IMG/VR virus record: IMGVR_UViG_3300030085_002156
Location: 1 to 24,179 of that record
Origin: a virus
Reading direction: 5' to 3' (one strand)
DNA length: 24,179 bases
A model generated the notes under the pieces. The model did not search any database, was not told the origin of the DNA, and worked only from the letters and a program-made list of their open reading frames with translations. Below are positions 9,450 through 17,560 of this stretch, in pieces; within the stretch, counting starts at the first letter, position 1, and each line of letters begins with the position of its first letter. Position numbers and translations under genes: made by a program.

Positions 9450-10880
9450 TTAGTTCATCAACATGAAGTTATTAGCTCCTTGAGTGATTAAACATCTTTC
9501 AGATAAGTAATGAACTTCCATTACATCTTTACCAGATGTAGCAGCGCCAACAGAACCAGTAATCCAAGTTTTCATTCTTCGATCATCAGTTTGTGAAGCT
9601 CTATATCTAACATGTAAGAAAGGACGTTTCATATTTGTACCTAATTGCTCGTCATAAACTGAAGAAACACCAGCTGGTATAACAACACCTCTAATGTTTG
9701 TTACAGTATCATTTAAAGCACCTCTAGTACCTTTATCATTAAGGTATTTAAAGTCAGACTTGTAGAAGTCATAAGAACCTCTTCTGAAACCAGAGAAACC
9801 TAAGTTAAGCGCCATGTCTTCAGAGTTGTTAAATACACCGTAAGATGTACCACCAGCTCCGTAAGAGTTCATTGAAGCTAACATATCATCAATAGCTAAG
9901 CTAGTTGATCTATCAACAAACATCATGTTTTCTTCAATAGCACCGTTTTGGTCAAACACAGCTAAAATAGCGTCAAACTCAGCTAAATCAGTAGCAGCGT
10001 TAACACCAGTAACACCTGTAGTTTGGTGACCTCTAGTAGTGATAGCTTGGAATAAACCTTGCGTACCATCTTGTAAAGCACCACCATCAGTACCACCAAT
10101 TGCACCAGCGTTTGCCACAGCAGTTTCAGCTTCTAACATAGTCATTTCTAAGTAATCAGTAAAACGAGCTCTAGTATCACCTTCAGCTTTTAAGTACCAT
10201 AAGTAACCTGACTGACCTTCTTCTCCAGCAACTTCAATCCAACCAATTTGCGTAGTATCAGATCCAGACACTTCGTAGTAATCTTTCATGATAATATGCT
10301 TGTTAGAGTGAGATTTAAACTTAGGAGAATTAGCAGAAGATCTACCATCAGTTCCTTTTTCAAACTCAGAACCAATAACTAATACTCTGTAAGCTCCAGC
10401 ACCAGCTGAATCAGAGAAACCAGCAGCATCAAAATCAGCTTCTGCGTAAGGTAAAATAGTAACATTAGCACTAGAAACAGCTGAAACGTAACCTCTTAAA
10501 GTTAAAGAAGCATTAGAAACTAATACCATATCTCCAACTCTAATACCGTGATCAGCTCCAACAGAGTTACCATCAACATCATTTACAATTGCAAATATGT
10601 TAGCAGAAACGTCTTCATTTGTAGCCGTGTAAGCTAAATGTAATCTACCTTGCTCTGACCATATAACTCTATCAGAAGTAGAAGGCTCTTCAGCTCCAAC
10701 TTGAGCTAAAAATCCTGCGATTGTTCTTTTACCGTAAACCTCAGCTTCTTTTTCCATAAGGTCTGGTAAATATTGTTGTGCCCAACCTTCAGTTGCTGAA
10801 GACGTAAAGTCTACGTAGTTAGACGACAACGTTTGTTTTCTAGGAGCAGCATCTATACCACTCGCACTTGTAATTGCCAT
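9450..10880 (-). CDS. Major capsid protein
   Basis: A 476-residue protein (MAITSASGIDAAPRKQTLSS) of the size and place expected for an HK97-fold major capsid protein: directly after portal and scaffold-like genes and before a strong terminator. Residues ~30-70 form the helical N-arm (EGWAQQYLPDLMEKEAEVYG), the middle contains a Gly/Ala/Asp-rich beta insertion (~90-160), and a long helix region (EMTMLEAETAVANAGAIGG) is followed by a beta-rich end (HYLSERCLITQGANNFMLMN). Codon use looks richer in C and G than in its neighbours, which fits a highly expressed gene. No protease is fused to it. The phage chaperonin genes upstream make it a likely folding client. Assignment rests on size, order and composition rather than a single motif. 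Confidence 0.85.
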   Translation of the reverse strand: MAITSASGIDAAPRKQTLSSNYVDFTSSATEGWAQQYLPDLMEKEAEVYGKRTIAGFLAQVGAEEPSTSDRVIWSEQGRLHLAYTATNEDVSANIFAIVNDVDGNSVGADHGIRVGDMVLVSNASLTLRGYVSAVSSANVTILPYAEADFDAAGFSDSAGAGAYRVLVIGSEFEKGTDGRSSANSPKFKSHSNKHIIMKDYYEVSGSDTTQIGWIEVAGEEGQSGYLWYLKAEGDTRARFTDYLEMTMLEAETAVANAGAIGGTDGGALQDGTQGLFQAITTRGHQTTGVTGVNAATDLAEFDAILAVFDQNGAIEENMMFVDRSTSLAIDDMLASMNSYGAGGTSYGVFNNSEDMALNLGFSGFRRGSYDFYKSDFKYLNDKGTRGALNDTVTNIRGVVIPAGVSSVYDEQLGTNMKRPFLHVRYRASQTDDRRMKTWITGSVGAATSGKDVMEVHYLSERCLITQGANNFMLMN

Positions 10881-12110: not shown

Positions 12111-14531
12111 TTATCTAGGATCAAACACACCTAAATCAAATCCTCCACCTAGTATATCATTACCTGCGGACTCAAAGTTTTTAGGTGGTTTTCCACTTTT
12201 TCTCTGCTCAATCATTTCTGATTGCTGTGTAGCTTGTATTTTTGTTCTTTCGTCTTTTCTATCTTCTTTTTCTTTTTCTCTCTGTTGTAGACTTTGAGTT
12301 TCCATACCTTTAAGCTGCATGTTGTATTGAAACTCTAAAGCCATTAACTCTTTTTTCATTTGAACTTCTTGCATCATTTTTTGAGCATCTACTTGCGCTT
12401 GCATTTGCATTAGCTCTGCTTTACTAGCATTTAGCGCTTGATTTTTTTGAACTTCAACTTGTGCTGCTACTTGCGCTGCTTGAGAGTTAGACTGTGTTTG
12501 CGCTTGAATATTTTCCATTTGCAACTGTCTATCTTTTGCTTCTTTTCTTTTTCTACGTATTTTTAACATTTGATTTGCTAACTTTATATTACGTATCTCT
12601 CTAAGATCTATAGCATCTTCAAGCTCTATTGTTTTTTGTTGTAAAGCCATTTGAATATTATTTTCTAATCTAGCTTTTTCTTCTTCATCTGGTTGTAATT
12701 CTATAAATATACCAAAATCATATAAGTGTAACTCAGACATTTCTTCTAACGTAGCAACATTATGAACGCCTATAGCTTGTATAAACGCATCTTTTGTTGG
12801 TGAATATTCTATAATATCAGATATTCTAAGTGACAAACACTCTGCTGTCTCTGCGGTTAAGTACAAACCAGCTTGTAGTATATGTCTTGTTGCTGTGTTA
12901 GAATTAGCGGCTGCTAACTTTTGAACTCCTACTAAAGCATTTTTATCAGGCATACTACCATCTCTTGCTTCATTTAAACCGGTTACATCTCTTATCATTT
13001 GTAAGTAGTAATTATAATTAGCAATAAGAGCTTGCATTTTATTACCACCAGATCCAGATGTAATTTCTTGAATAGGTACTTTGCCAGGGTTTAAATCACC
13101 TTCAGATGTAAAGCTTCTACCAATAACACTACCAGTTTGGAAGTACATGTTTAAAGCTTCTTGTGGATTATAGTTTGTTCCGTTACCTAAATCAACTTCA
13201 GCTAAACCATCAGCATCTAAATAAACACCATCTGGCACCATTCTAGACATTACCTGTTGTAGCTTTAAATGTGTTAATTGAATCATATCTGCAAAACCAG
13301 TTATACGTTTTACTAGCGAATCAATTCTACCATCATACATCCTAGGAGCACAAATAGCATAATTCATTTTAACCTTAGTAAAATCACTTTTAGGACGCAT
13401 CATGTTTTTAGCCATGCCCCATTTAAGTAATCTATCAGTACCAAGTATTATAGCGCCTTCATATAAAGTTTCTATAGATCTTAACATCCTACTATATCCT
13501 CCTTCTTTATTTTCTGGCGGATTAAAAGAATCATCTTTAGGTATAATTTTATTAGCACCAGTAGCAGTTTCTTTTACTTTATAAACTTCGTTCATATATG
13601 TTTTGTAATTAAAATACAAAACTTGAATAGTATTATTATCTTCTTTGTAATCAGTATGTCTAGAGCTATAGTTAGATCTATTATAAGGTTTGCTCTTCAT
13701 TATATCTTCAAGATCACTTTCAGATAAATGAGGAAACTCTTTTGCTAGTTCGTTTACTGGAATAGTTTTTACTTCACCAACATAATATATATCTTCAAAA
13801 TAAGGGGATTCTGTGTAAGAGTAAACTAAGTTTGCTGGATCAACGTATTCAACGCAAACTCCTTGTGAGGTGTTAAAAGATGTTTTTACAGCACCAATAC
13901 CTAAAACTGTTAAGTCGTAATAAAATCTTTTCTTTATTAATTCATAATCATTACCTTCTAACAAAACGTTTAAAGCTTGTTCTTCAGCTACTTCAACGGC
14001 TTGTTTGTAACTAAGCTGCATGTGTAGTTCTAGTTCTTCTTTAGTTTCAGGTAGTGTGTCTTCATCATTTTCAGCAATAGACATGTTAAACGCTTGTTTA
14101 GTAAATTCGTTTAATTCTTTAGTTCTCATGTCAGACAGCATTGACTCCATATATTCAGTACGTTTTGCAACGCCATAAGGATCCTGCGAATAAGCTTTTA
14201 TATCATAAGTTCTTTCTGCAATACCATTTACAACTATATCTACAAACTTAGGTATAATAGGAACTGGCTTCCAGTCTAAATTTAAATAAGACAAATCACC
14301 ATTTATAGATAATTCATCTTTGTATTTTTGTATAGATTGTTCGCCTCTTGCGTATAATCTTAAATTATGAAAATCATTATGATTTGTTCTATATTTATTA
14401 TAGCCTCTTTCTTCGTGAAACCACTCTTGCTCTATTGCTTTACCTACTTTCAAACCATATTCATAACTTAGCTTTTCAGCGTCACTTACTGTTTGACTAG
14501 GAAAATAACTTTTCATGCCAGACTCTGCCAT
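12111..14531 (-). CDS. Portal protein
   Basis: At 806 residues this matches the large portal size class. The N-terminal two thirds include LDWKPVPIIPKFVDIVVNGI (~90-112), a helix-rich wing and stem region, and DVTGLNEARDGSMPDKNALV (~540), a type of segment often seen in portals. From ~residue 610 the protein becomes a long Gln/Lys/Glu-rich coiled coil, ending in a Gly/Asp tail with NFESAGND at ~785-792. The portal forms the ring at one capsid vertex through which DNA enters and leaves. It sits 5 bases after TerL and 26 bases before the scaffold gene, the classical packaging-head order. The long coiled C-terminus probably lies inside the capsid as a barrel. No Shine-Dalgarno is present; the leader is A/T-rich. 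Confidence 0.9.
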   Translation of the reverse strand: MAESGMKSYFPSQTVSDAEKLSYEYGLKVGKAIEQEWFHEERGYNKYRTNHNDFHNLRLYARGEQSIQKYKDELSINGDLSYLNLDWKPVPIIPKFVDIVVNGIAERTYDIKAYSQDPYGVAKRTEYMESMLSDMRTKELNEFTKQAFNMSIAENDEDTLPETKEELELHMQLSYKQAVEVAEEQALNVLLEGNDYELIKKRFYYDLTVLGIGAVKTSFNTSQGVCVEYVDPANLVYSYTESPYFEDIYYVGEVKTIPVNELAKEFPHLSESDLEDIMKSKPYNRSNYSSRHTDYKEDNNTIQVLYFNYKTYMNEVYKVKETATGANKIIPKDDSFNPPENKEGGYSRMLRSIETLYEGAIILGTDRLLKWGMAKNMMRPKSDFTKVKMNYAICAPRMYDGRIDSLVKRITGFADMIQLTHLKLQQVMSRMVPDGVYLDADGLAEVDLGNGTNYNPQEALNMYFQTGSVIGRSFTSEGDLNPGKVPIQEITSGSGGNKMQALIANYNYYLQMIRDVTGLNEARDGSMPDKNALVGVQKLAAANSNTATRHILQAGLYLTAETAECLSLRISDIIEYSPTKDAFIQAIGVHNVATLEEMSELHLYDFGIFIELQPDEEEKARLENNIQMALQQKTIELEDAIDLREIRNIKLANQMLKIRRKRKEAKDRQLQMENIQAQTQSNSQAAQVAAQVEVQKNQALNASKAELMQMQAQVDAQKMMQEVQMKKELMALEFQYNMQLKGMETQSLQQREKEKEDRKDERTKIQATQQSEMIEQRKSGKPPKNFESAGNDILGGGFDLGVFDPR

Positions 14532-14536
14532 ATTTA

Positions 14537-16750
14537 TTATTTTATTATTCGTGAATTACTTCCAGTATTAGTATACTTAGAAATTTTTAAATTTATTTTT
14601 GGTTTTTCAACCTTAACGTTTGGAGCGTATAAATGTCTATTGTTAGCCATAATAGCTAAACCAGAACTTATTGAAGCATCAAACTTTGTTCTTTTGTTTA
14701 TGTCAAACTTAGCCCAATCATTTAACAACTCGTTAAAATAAAGATCACCAACAGAACCATCTTGCATTATACCAACGTGATCTTGTATATACATTTCAAT
14801 AGCTGCAGCATGAGCTTGTTTAATATCTTCTGAGGAGTTAGGTATACCACCTATTTCTTTTTCTGCAACAGATAGTTTATTCCATAATTTATCTGGTCTA
14901 TTCATACTAAAACCTCTATAACCTCTTCTTCTTAAATAGTATAATAACCTAGGTTTATTATTCTCTGCTAATATTGGCATACCATAAAAAACTAAAGCCA
15001 TTAATACATCTTCAAAAAATATTTCAGCCGTAGGTGGTCTTGATAAGTATTCTAAAAAAAAGCTGTTCGCAGGAGCGTCCTCCATACTAAACCTGGTTAA
15101 GCCGTGTAATGCTCCTTTAGATCCTTTTCCATCTACGGTCCCTGATATATCATAAGAGTCACAACCAAATGCCCCTACGTGTTCATTACCAGGATATTTA
15201 ACACCATTTTTAAGTACCACTCTATTTTGTAGTTGTTGAGGTGGAACCCAACTAACTTTAAATCTACCTTTTGGATCTGGATAAAATATAACTTGTGTAT
15301 CTTTTACTCCGTTAATCCATTGGAAATTACCAGATGTAACTCCAAGGCTTCTAGACATTTCTTCGTTATAATCTATTTGTTCGTATATTTTAACTAAATT
15401 AAAAATAGAGTTTTTGGTTTCATCTCTAAAAGCATGCTCTTCTGTTCTAGGGAACTGTCTGTAAAACTCGTTTAAAGCGTCTTGATCATCTTTCAAACCA
15501 TCAGCTTCGTTTTGCCAACTATCTATTACACCTACATCTATTAGTTCGCCGTCTGGCGCAAATCTGTCGATATCAGGAGTAGTAAAGACTGGAACTCCAT
15601 ACTCGTCAATAAATCCTTCGTAGTTCCATTCCATTGGGATAAAAAGAGAGTATAGTCCAGACTTTGTCTGACCATTTCTATTTCTTTTTGTGACATCTGA
15701 TGCGTTGTATAGTTTTTTAAAATTTTCTCCACCTTTATCTAAAGCATTTGAAGTAGAGCCCATCATACATTTACCAATAATCCTACTACCTAATCGTAAA
15801 CATGTTTTTGTAACTCTCCAGTTATTTAAAATATTATCGGGTCTTTCCCATTTACCACTTTCATCATGAACTAACAACGCTAATTTCTCACCGTCATAGC
15901 TATTGTCTCCTGTATTTTTCCAGTCAATTGTTGTATCTAAACCTTCAAGCTCTTCAACTTTTTCGTTAGCAGTTATTTTCTTTCTTGTAAACTTACTAGC
16001 TGGAACTCTATAAGCTAACTCAGTTTTAGGTCTATCCATACCATCTTGTATTGGCTTGAAGAAAAACGGATAGTTAATACTAATAGGTACAACTTTATCT
16101 GTAAACATTTTTTTAGCGTCAGCACCAGTTTTAGAAAGTATACCAAATCTACTATCACTTGCAAGAGTTGCTAAATTAACTGTTTCAGCGCTACTCATAA
16201 AAGAAAATCCAGATCGTCTGTTTTTAAGATAACACATACCATAACATCTACTATCTGCCTTGCAAGCTTCCCAAAATATAAAGAATAACCTATTTGCTTC
16301 TCTAAAATCAGGTGCACCAACATCAATCTTACTCCATTGTAAGTACATATAATGTGTTCCTACTATATAAGTTGGTTTATTGTTATTTATAAACCAAAAA
16401 CCTTCTTCTCTTCTTTTAAACTCTTCGTCTATATAATCGAACCATTTTTCTTTATTTTCGTCCGGATAGTTTCTCCAGTCAAATATGTTTTTTATTCTAC
16501 TTAGTTCTTTAGGATATTCTTGTTTCACCCATTTATTTTTTGGGTTTTTATATACCTCTTTAGGAACTTTTGGCAAAGCAATAGCTAAACCTTGTATTTC
16601 TATTATATCACCTATTTGTCCTGTTCTAGATATTATAACAATATCATGCTCTTTATTGTAACCGTATTTCCACTTTTTACCTTTATTAAGACGACTAACA
16701 GTAGTCTTTTTAACAGGTTCAACTATTTTAACTAAACTTTGACTGTACAT
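14537..16750 (-). CDS. terL: Terminase large subunit
   Basis: A 737-residue packaging motor. ATPase: a deviant Walker A-like segment KNRRSGFS (176-183), Walker B LALLVHDES (290-298) with Asp296 and Glu297, and a coupling motif GSTSNA (331-336). Nuclease of RNase H-like type: Asp531/Asp534 in CDSYDISG, an acidic pair at 580-581 (FFEDVLMAL) and Asp691 in KFDASISSGLA. The N-terminal ~130 residues form an extra domain before the ATPase core. ATG 16750 shares its A with the stop of the upstream gene (TAATG), which points to coupled translation. It is followed 5 bases later by the portal gene. It would translocate and cut concatemeric DNA; the cutting mode (cos, pac or other) cannot be told from the sequence. 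Confidence 0.92.
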   Translation of the reverse strand: MYSQSLVKIVEPVKKTTVSRLNKGKKWKYGYNKEHDIVIISRTGQIGDIIEIQGLAIALPKVPKEVYKNPKNKWVKQEYPKELSRIKNIFDWRNYPDENKEKWFDYIDEEFKRREEGFWFINNNKPTYIVGTHYMYLQWSKIDVGAPDFREANRLFFIFWEACKADSRCYGMCYLKNRRSGFSFMSSAETVNLATLASDSRFGILSKTGADAKKMFTDKVVPISINYPFFFKPIQDGMDRPKTELAYRVPASKFTRKKITANEKVEELEGLDTTIDWKNTGDNSYDGEKLALLVHDESGKWERPDNILNNWRVTKTCLRLGSRIIGKCMMGSTSNALDKGGENFKKLYNASDVTKRNRNGQTKSGLYSLFIPMEWNYEGFIDEYGVPVFTTPDIDRFAPDGELIDVGVIDSWQNEADGLKDDQDALNEFYRQFPRTEEHAFRDETKNSIFNLVKIYEQIDYNEEMSRSLGVTSGNFQWINGVKDTQVIFYPDPKGRFKVSWVPPQQLQNRVVLKNGVKYPGNEHVGAFGCDSYDISGTVDGKGSKGALHGLTRFSMEDAPANSFFLEYLSRPPTAEIFFEDVLMALVFYGMPILAENNKPRLLYYLRRRGYRGFSMNRPDKLWNKLSVAEKEIGGIPNSSEDIKQAHAAAIEMYIQDHVGIMQDGSVGDLYFNELLNDWAKFDINKRTKFDASISSGLAIMANNRHLYAPNVKVEKPKINLKISKYTNTGSNSRIIK

Positions 16751-17025
16751 TACTTAGATCTACTTTCTGCGAATCCTTTAAAAGTCTTTTCCTTTGTCTC
16801 TTCAGGTGCTTTGCCCTCGAGTATGTTTTCTTCTTCTTGGATTCTGTTAAGTATTTCAAATGCGTCAAATATAGCTAGTTTTTTAGTAGCTGCGGCATTT
16901 TTAAGTCTATCTGCTGATATGTCATCGTTTGAATCAACGATCGCTTCTTTTGCTACTTTAATCAGCTCTTCAACTGCTTTGTGCCCAGCTTGGATTATAC
17001 TCTTCTTCGTTTCCTTGATGTTCAT
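16750..17025 (-). CDS. Putative terminase small subunit
   Basis: I choose the start at 17025 (MNIKETKKSIIQAGHKAVEE), giving 91 residues. A longer start at 17112 would overlap the previous gene by 143 bases and add an ill-fitting N-terminus, and the chosen start has the same ATCAAAT leader as groEL. The product is almost entirely helical (IKVAKEAIVDSNDDISADRL; KLAIFDAFEILNRIQEEEN) with a basic tail. Small size, helical nature and direct TAATG coupling to terL suggest the DNA-recognition subunit of the packaging enzyme. No clear helix-turn-helix is visible, so the function is an inference from position. Confidence 0.6.
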   Translation of the reverse strand: MNIKETKKSIIQAGHKAVEELIKVAKEAIVDSNDDISADRLKNAAATKKLAIFDAFEILNRIQEEENILEGKAPEETKEKTFKGFAESRSK

Positions 17026-17560
17026 ATTTGATTGTAATAAAATTAGATAAAACTCGAAACAGTCTCTCGCCATCAACGATAAACTCATATTCACTATTTG
17101 GTCTAAAACCAACTAAATCTCCAACGTTTACCGTACCGTCTGAATACTTAACAATACCTTGTAAAGGTTTTTCAGATTTAGTATTAAACTTGTCTGTTGC
17201 TTTTAAAGGTATTACAAAACAATAACCTTTTGGACTTATCCATTTAGTATCTCTTTTGTATAAAAATATTTGATCATTACTTATAAAGTAAGTATCTTCA
17301 TTAAAATAAGCTCTACTATTTTTTTCAATACCTTTTACGTTATGCCATCTACGAAACACATTGTGATGTACTATAACTATATCACCTGGTTTTATGTCTG
17401 TATTACCAATTATAGGTGTAGATATAACTTCTGCTTCTCTATTAACATATTGGTGGTTAAAAATCTCAGTGTTAAGAATTAACTCTTTACCATTTAATTT
17501 TTTAGTATTATTATATCTTTGTCCTTTTGGTTTTACAACAAAGTTGTAAACACTTTTCAT
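16970..17560 (-). CDS. Tandem GroES-like (double Cpn10 barrel) protein
   Basis: Two GroES-like repeats can be read in this 196-residue protein. Repeat 1 (~1-104): first strand VYNFVVKP, a long loop containing GKELILNT (25-31), then AEVISTPIIGNTDIKPGDIV (43-62) and a closing DQIFLYKRD. Repeat 2 (~110-180): strand GYCFVIPL, a loop (121-134), then GIVKYSDGTVNVGDLVGF (135-152) and closing FITIKYE. In GroES the same order is strand, mobile loop with a hydrophobic triplet (IVL), G-V-L-A-V-G, V-G-D-I-V and a final strand; LIL at 27-29 could be the counterpart of IVL. It starts at a TAATG junction and ends in TGA, 55 bases inside the next gene. A capsid-assembly co-chaperonin is possible; a neutral barrel protein is the alternative. 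Confidence 0.6.
   Translation of the reverse strand: MKSVYNFVVKPKGQRYNNTKKLNGKELILNTEIFNHQYVNREAEVISTPIIGNTDIKPGDIVIVHHNVFRRWHNVKGIEKNSRAYFNEDTYFISNDQIFLYKRDTKWISPKGYCFVIPLKATDKFNTKSEKPLQGIVKYSDGTVNVGDLVGFRPNSEYEFIVDGERLFRVLSNFITIKYEHQGNEEEYNPSWAQSS

Follow-up and report, generated by a model that had tools for sequence, protein, structure and literature searches.

The design closest to the protein described here is that of plastid Cpn20, a two-domain co-chaperonin type that has been called chloroplast-specific in a review (PMC5780408). In chloroplasts, Cpn20 works in mixed rings with Cpn10, for which seven-domain lids are proposed, and Cpn20 tetramers and concatamers with an even number of domains (six or eight) work with the seven-fold GroEL (PMC5780408). 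Chlamydomonas co-chaperonins have also been reported to cap ClpP (PMC8889267). GroEL has already been reported in phages of the kind studied here (PMC5332604; PMC11590407), and "chaperonin cpn10" is a core protein of the Pervagoviridae (PMC8776804), where either of two cpn10 genes could be meant. The family examined below is itself already labelled GroES or cpn10 in PHROGs, in RefSeq, and by the depositors of relatives, and the word "cryptic" used for it in the original prediction does not hold. What sets it apart is the double-domain layout, known mainly from chloroplasts. In the literature searchable without subscription, we found no paper that states this layout or that describes joint action of three chaperonin genes.

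The window analyzed is one entire IMG/VR contig of 24,179 bases from a marine phage with relatives among the phages of Bacteroidetes, a podovirus-type relative of Cellulophaga phi38:1 and the Flavobacterium elemo phages (Table 1). Its tandem gene, P0001, encodes exactly the motifs that had been read from the DNA, namely LIL (L27-I28-L29), PGDIVIV (residues 58-64), and VGDLVGF (residues 146-152). This open reading frame is a genuine conserved gene: at least 599 relatives were found in IMG/VR, a freshwater homologue used as the query gave 540 (a set that overlaps the first), and the median dN/dS of P0001 against 88 equal-length relatives was 0.16. The named phages that carry the tandem are the Flavobacterium elemo phages, Cellulophaga phi38:1, phi40:1, and Calle, Maribacter phage Panino, and MW202828. 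The tandem had 23 matches in collections of bacterial and archaeal genomes, all on MAG contigs; 20 of these also carry the terminase large subunit gene (TerL), and the other three stop just past the tandem and carry gp73, so that a host-gene origin was rejected. One 1.05-Mb MAG record named as an Aenigmatarchaeota chromosome holds the tandem, TerL, portal, and capsid genes (L288, CP070801.1:863639-884193), and this phage segment is probably there by misassembly or misbinning.

Table 1. Positions of the tandem gene, its predicted domains, and the neighboring and chaperonin genes in the window.
Feature	Position	Strand	Evidence or remark
P0001, tandem Cpn10/GroES-like protein, 196 aa	16970..17560	-	PHROG, AlphaFold2, Foldseek, TerL linkage
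Predicted N-terminal Cpn10-like domain, residues 1-106	17243..17560	-	domain folded alone; mobile-loop-like segment at about residues 20-40
Predicted C-terminal Cpn10-like domain, residues 107-196	16973..17242	-	C-half PHROG and Pfam matches; short loop 121-130
gp73, 73 aa	17560..17781	-	directly upstream, one-base overlap with tandem start; no match in family searches
ORF91, 91 aa	16750..17025	-	between tandem and TerL, overlapping both; no match in family searches
Terminase large subunit (TerL)	14537..16750	-	phrog_6681, E = 1.4e-171
Portal protein	12111..14531	-	phrog_6547, E = 2e-159; transcribed in the direction of the tandem
Virion structural protein, 476 aa, major capsid position	9450..10880	-	phrog_13704 "virion structural protein", E = 2e-102
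Single GroES/Cpn10, 85 aa	21080..21337	-	mobile loop KKVAGLIMTD; Pfam Cpn10 32.6 bits (cut-off 21.1); phrog_3188, E = 1e-12
GroEL/Cpn60, 520 aa	21324..22886	-	overlaps GroES; Pfam Cpn60, E = 7e-50

Profile searches revealed that P0001 matches PHROG 13932, "co-chaperonin GroES" (E = 2.2e-18, residues 1-169 on 1-189 of 200), and that the single GroES of the window also matches the C-terminal half of this family (1e-6). When homologues were split, 20 of 54 C-halves (best 5.7e-8) and 6 of 95 N-halves (best 4e-4) matched the single-GroES family phrog_3188, the N-half of the elemo protein in register. The window GroES aligned over its full length with the C-half of the phi38:1 protein (E = 1e-6), with GLIM opposite GLRVI in the loop. 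The Cpn10 profile search proposed with the original prediction gave a divided answer: the C-domains of the phi38:1, Calle_3, and G019 homologues exceed the Pfam Cpn10 cut-off (24-26 bits versus 21.1), and 10 of the 96 homologues reach E < 0.1 (best 2.2e-6), while P0001 itself falls below the cut-off and its single-sequence searches of PDB and Pfam gave no significant match.

Structure prediction gave two Cpn10 barrels. From an input alignment of 96 diverse homologues, AlphaFold2 modeled P0001 with a pLDDT of 84.9 and a pTM of 0.77, and mid-chain confidence was weakest at residues 20-40 and 121-130, which are the two mobile-loop positions. In a Foldseek search of the PDB, the first two ranks were 7ekq_R and 7ekq_Q (E 6.9e-5, 205 columns, TM 0.55, rmsd 6.8 Å), two tandem co-chaperonin chains of the Chlamydomonas ClpP complex that aligned along the entire protein and of which chain R is named "Cpn20 co-chaperonin subunit"; GroES and T4 gp31 followed, and Cpn10 structures were retrieved with probabilities up to 1.00. 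Single-domain GroES chains reached a TM of at most about 0.33 (normalized to query length) compared with 0.55 for 7ekq_R, which indicates that both barrels superpose together, and the model hints that the two domains may be arranged like ring neighbors, as in that chain. When the N-domain was folded alone, its best 15 PDB matches were all Cpn10, GroES, or gp31. Direct comparison of the N-half and C-half profiles gave an in-register alignment at E of about 0.02-0.05, and comparison of the halves with the GroES profile of the window lineage was likewise in register at E 0.01-0.05, the alignments being shallow in both cases. Because this self-similarity is weak, the duplication call rests on the fold and on the match of each half to GroES models; on this basis, P0001 is best described as two predicted Cpn10/GroES domains in one chain, and both the two GroES-like repeats and the likeness to plastid Cpn20 that had been proposed are borne out. 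Weak matches to Cupin_2 and LpxA (3hsq), and those of N-halves to Lac_Phage_Head (5/95, best 4e-4), were dismissed as chance or fold-unspecific since AlphaFold2 and Foldseek gave Cpn10. A viral protein of 304 aa in BFVD (A0A516L046) aligns to the whole tandem (TMq 0.70), and its approximately 100 extra residues may reflect a fusion or form a third domain.

The two domains differ in their loops, a point absent from the original prediction. Across the 96 diverse homologues, positions L27, I28, and L29 carry a bulky hydrophobic residue in 100, 99, and 96%, respectively, and the GD turn of the first domain is conserved in 95 and 98%. The GroEL-binding type of loop proposed for repeat 1 is supported, and the homologues do not lack both the triplet and the turn. 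In the second domain, D148 is conserved in 92% and G147 in 68%, and in the window lineage the loop is cut to about 10 residues with no hydrophobic triplet. The corresponding loop of phi38:1 is longer. Judged from these alignments, the window lineage keeps the hydrophobic, GroEL-binding type of loop in the N-domain only, and the picture of two equivalent lid domains is not supported. H65-H66-N67 (window 17360-17368) is invariant in all 96 homologues and is possibly a metal site or an interface; Y16, N18, and R41 are also invariant. The C-terminal tail of the tandem (EHQGNEEEYNPSWAQSS) is confined to the marine group to which the window belongs.

The placement of the gene beside the terminase, likewise part of the original prediction, proved to be general. 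In the window, gp73, the tandem, ORF91, and TerL follow one another with successive end-to-start overlaps, ORF91 covering the final 56 bases of the tandem gene, and TerL is thus the next-but-one gene. TerL lies downstream on the same strand in 211 of the 211 loci with room for it (167 within 600 bp, the others within about 1.1 kb) and in every MAG contig that is long enough, while gp73 lies directly upstream in 212 of 235 loci and in all 23 MAG contigs. By position alone, ORF91 is a possible small terminase, and the product of 9450..10880 is possibly the capsid protein and a candidate chaperone client. In several loci (L204, L221, L231, L237, L244, and others), inserted sequence widens the interval from the tandem to TerL to about 0.7-0.9 kb, compared with the usual 0.2 kb or so. 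Conservation of gp73 can exceed that of the tandem (90% versus 65% in L279), and among the named phages gp73 was found only alongside the tandem.

The window also carries the normal GroEL/GroES pair that had been noted besides the tandem. The best PDB match of its GroEL is the Bacteroidetes-type ancestral GroEL 9rwr (E = 3.5e-112, aligned end to end), and inspection of the alignment showed that the ATPase-site segments KDGVTVA, GDGTTTST, and RVEDA are retained. In 18 related tandem-bearing records of at least 48 kb (14 from IMG/VR and four named phages), a separate single GroES was present in 18 and GroEL in 17. The one exception is a 72.8-kb record with the tandem and a single GroES (L177/G019), in which no GroEL was detected, including by a direct protein search run without a positive control; this phage possibly uses the host GroEL, as T4 does, and the partner of the tandem therefore need not be a phage GroEL. 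The groEL gene and the tandem lie on opposite strands in elemo, phi38:1, and Calle_3; MW202828 and the window have both on one strand. The tandem thus travels with the packaging and structural genes and not with groEL.

We hypothesize that P0001 is a Cpn20-like lid for the phage (or host) GroEL that is made with the late packaging and capsid genes, possibly in mixed seven-domain rings with the single GroES, and we consider this the probable explanation. The loop of the first domain would cap the phage GroEL and perhaps that of the host. Gene order suggests that the protein would be made late, together with the packaging and capsid genes, and would aid the folding of virion or packaging proteins. 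The likeliest lid would be a ring of tandem and single GroES chains, for example three tandems and one single chain giving seven domains, because two-domain chains alone cannot evenly fill seven positions; in the window lineage, the second domain may be mainly a ring filler, as its loop is cut short. A bolder version, which we put forward only tentatively, is an asymmetric double co-chaperonin for virion assembly, in which only the first domain would anchor to GroEL, the loop-less second domain would fill the ring or make a taller dome, giving a more weakly anchored or enlarged cage, and the phage GroES would complete the ring.

Alternatively, one GroEL might have two separate lids, as the original prediction proposed; late in infection, an oligomer of the tandem alone (six or eight Cpn10 domains) would take the place of the single GroES. 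The genes for the two co-chaperonins lie apart, often on opposite strands, and the function of even-domain Cpn20 assemblies on the seven-fold GroEL (PMC5780408) is in keeping with such a lid; however, the single GroES is present in every one of the 18 tandem records, and a mixed ring accounts for this no less well. The constant presence of the single GroES thus favors the mixed ring and is compatible with two lids, and we regard the latter as possible but doubtful. Our confidence in the two readings overlaps since both take P0001 as a co-chaperonin and differ only in ring composition.

The main rival, which we judge unlikely, is that P0001 no longer serves GroEL and that its Cpn10 barrel has been turned to another use in packaging or in the head, either structural or in association with the terminase. 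The invariant linkage to gp73 and TerL would fit this role, as would the additional invariant residues (H65-H66-N67, Y16, N18, and R41) and a C-domain without a GroEL-binding loop. Against it, the hydrophobic triplet in the flexible loop is kept in 96 to 100% of homologues and GroEL/GroES are nearly always present; moreover, the phi38:1 record labels most neighbors of the tandem as structural but not the tandem itself, a weak point that concerns annotation only. That P0001 caps or inhibits a different ring of the host, for instance ClpP, which the Chlamydomonas co-chaperonins cap in 7ekq, is very improbable: the Cpn20-type chain that ranks first in the structural comparison does belong to a ClpP complex and such capping has been reported (PMC8889267), but the match reflects the fold and not the partner, and none of the 18 related phage records has ClpP, although a host ClpP exists.

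If the preferred reading of P0001 as a Cpn20-like lid is true, a widespread phage family would provide tandem lids independently of chloroplasts, alongside a GroEL and a GroES of its own. The phage system would be small enough for reconstitution, so that the action of even-domain lids on a seven-fold chaperonin could be tested directly, and why phages carry dedicated lids could be addressed in the cultured phages phi38:1, Calle, and elemo.

Among known proteins, the nearest by sequence are the members of PHROG 13932 (Cellulophaga phi38:1 gp089 and the cpn10 proteins of Calle and elemo), which form the family of P0001 and share its position before TerL; full-length homologues show 30 to 43% identity, and in the papers found they are annotated as GroES/cpn10 only, without mention of a double-domain layout. 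The single GroES shares the fold, the loop triplet, and the GD turn with the tandem, but it has one domain of 85-100 aa and is paired with groEL. T4 gp31 is, like P0001, a phage protein of co-chaperonin fold, and the N-domain matches its structure (1g31, probability 0.92); in contrast, gp31 has one domain and works with the host GroEL, whereas here two domains occur together with a phage GroEL, and no sequence relation between the two proteins was seen. In the comparison with plastid Cpn20 at the sequence level, P0001 had no PDB match, and profile A2 matched GroES only, and weakly. Nevertheless, plastid Cpn20/Cpn21 (7ekq chain R) likewise joins two Cpn10 domains in head-to-tail order within about 200 aa, with both barrels aligning, and it too occurs alongside a chaperonin of the GroEL type and a single Cpn10. 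P0001 differs in being a phage gene with a shortened second mobile loop, and the phage tandem is presumably a fusion that arose independently of plastid Cpn20.
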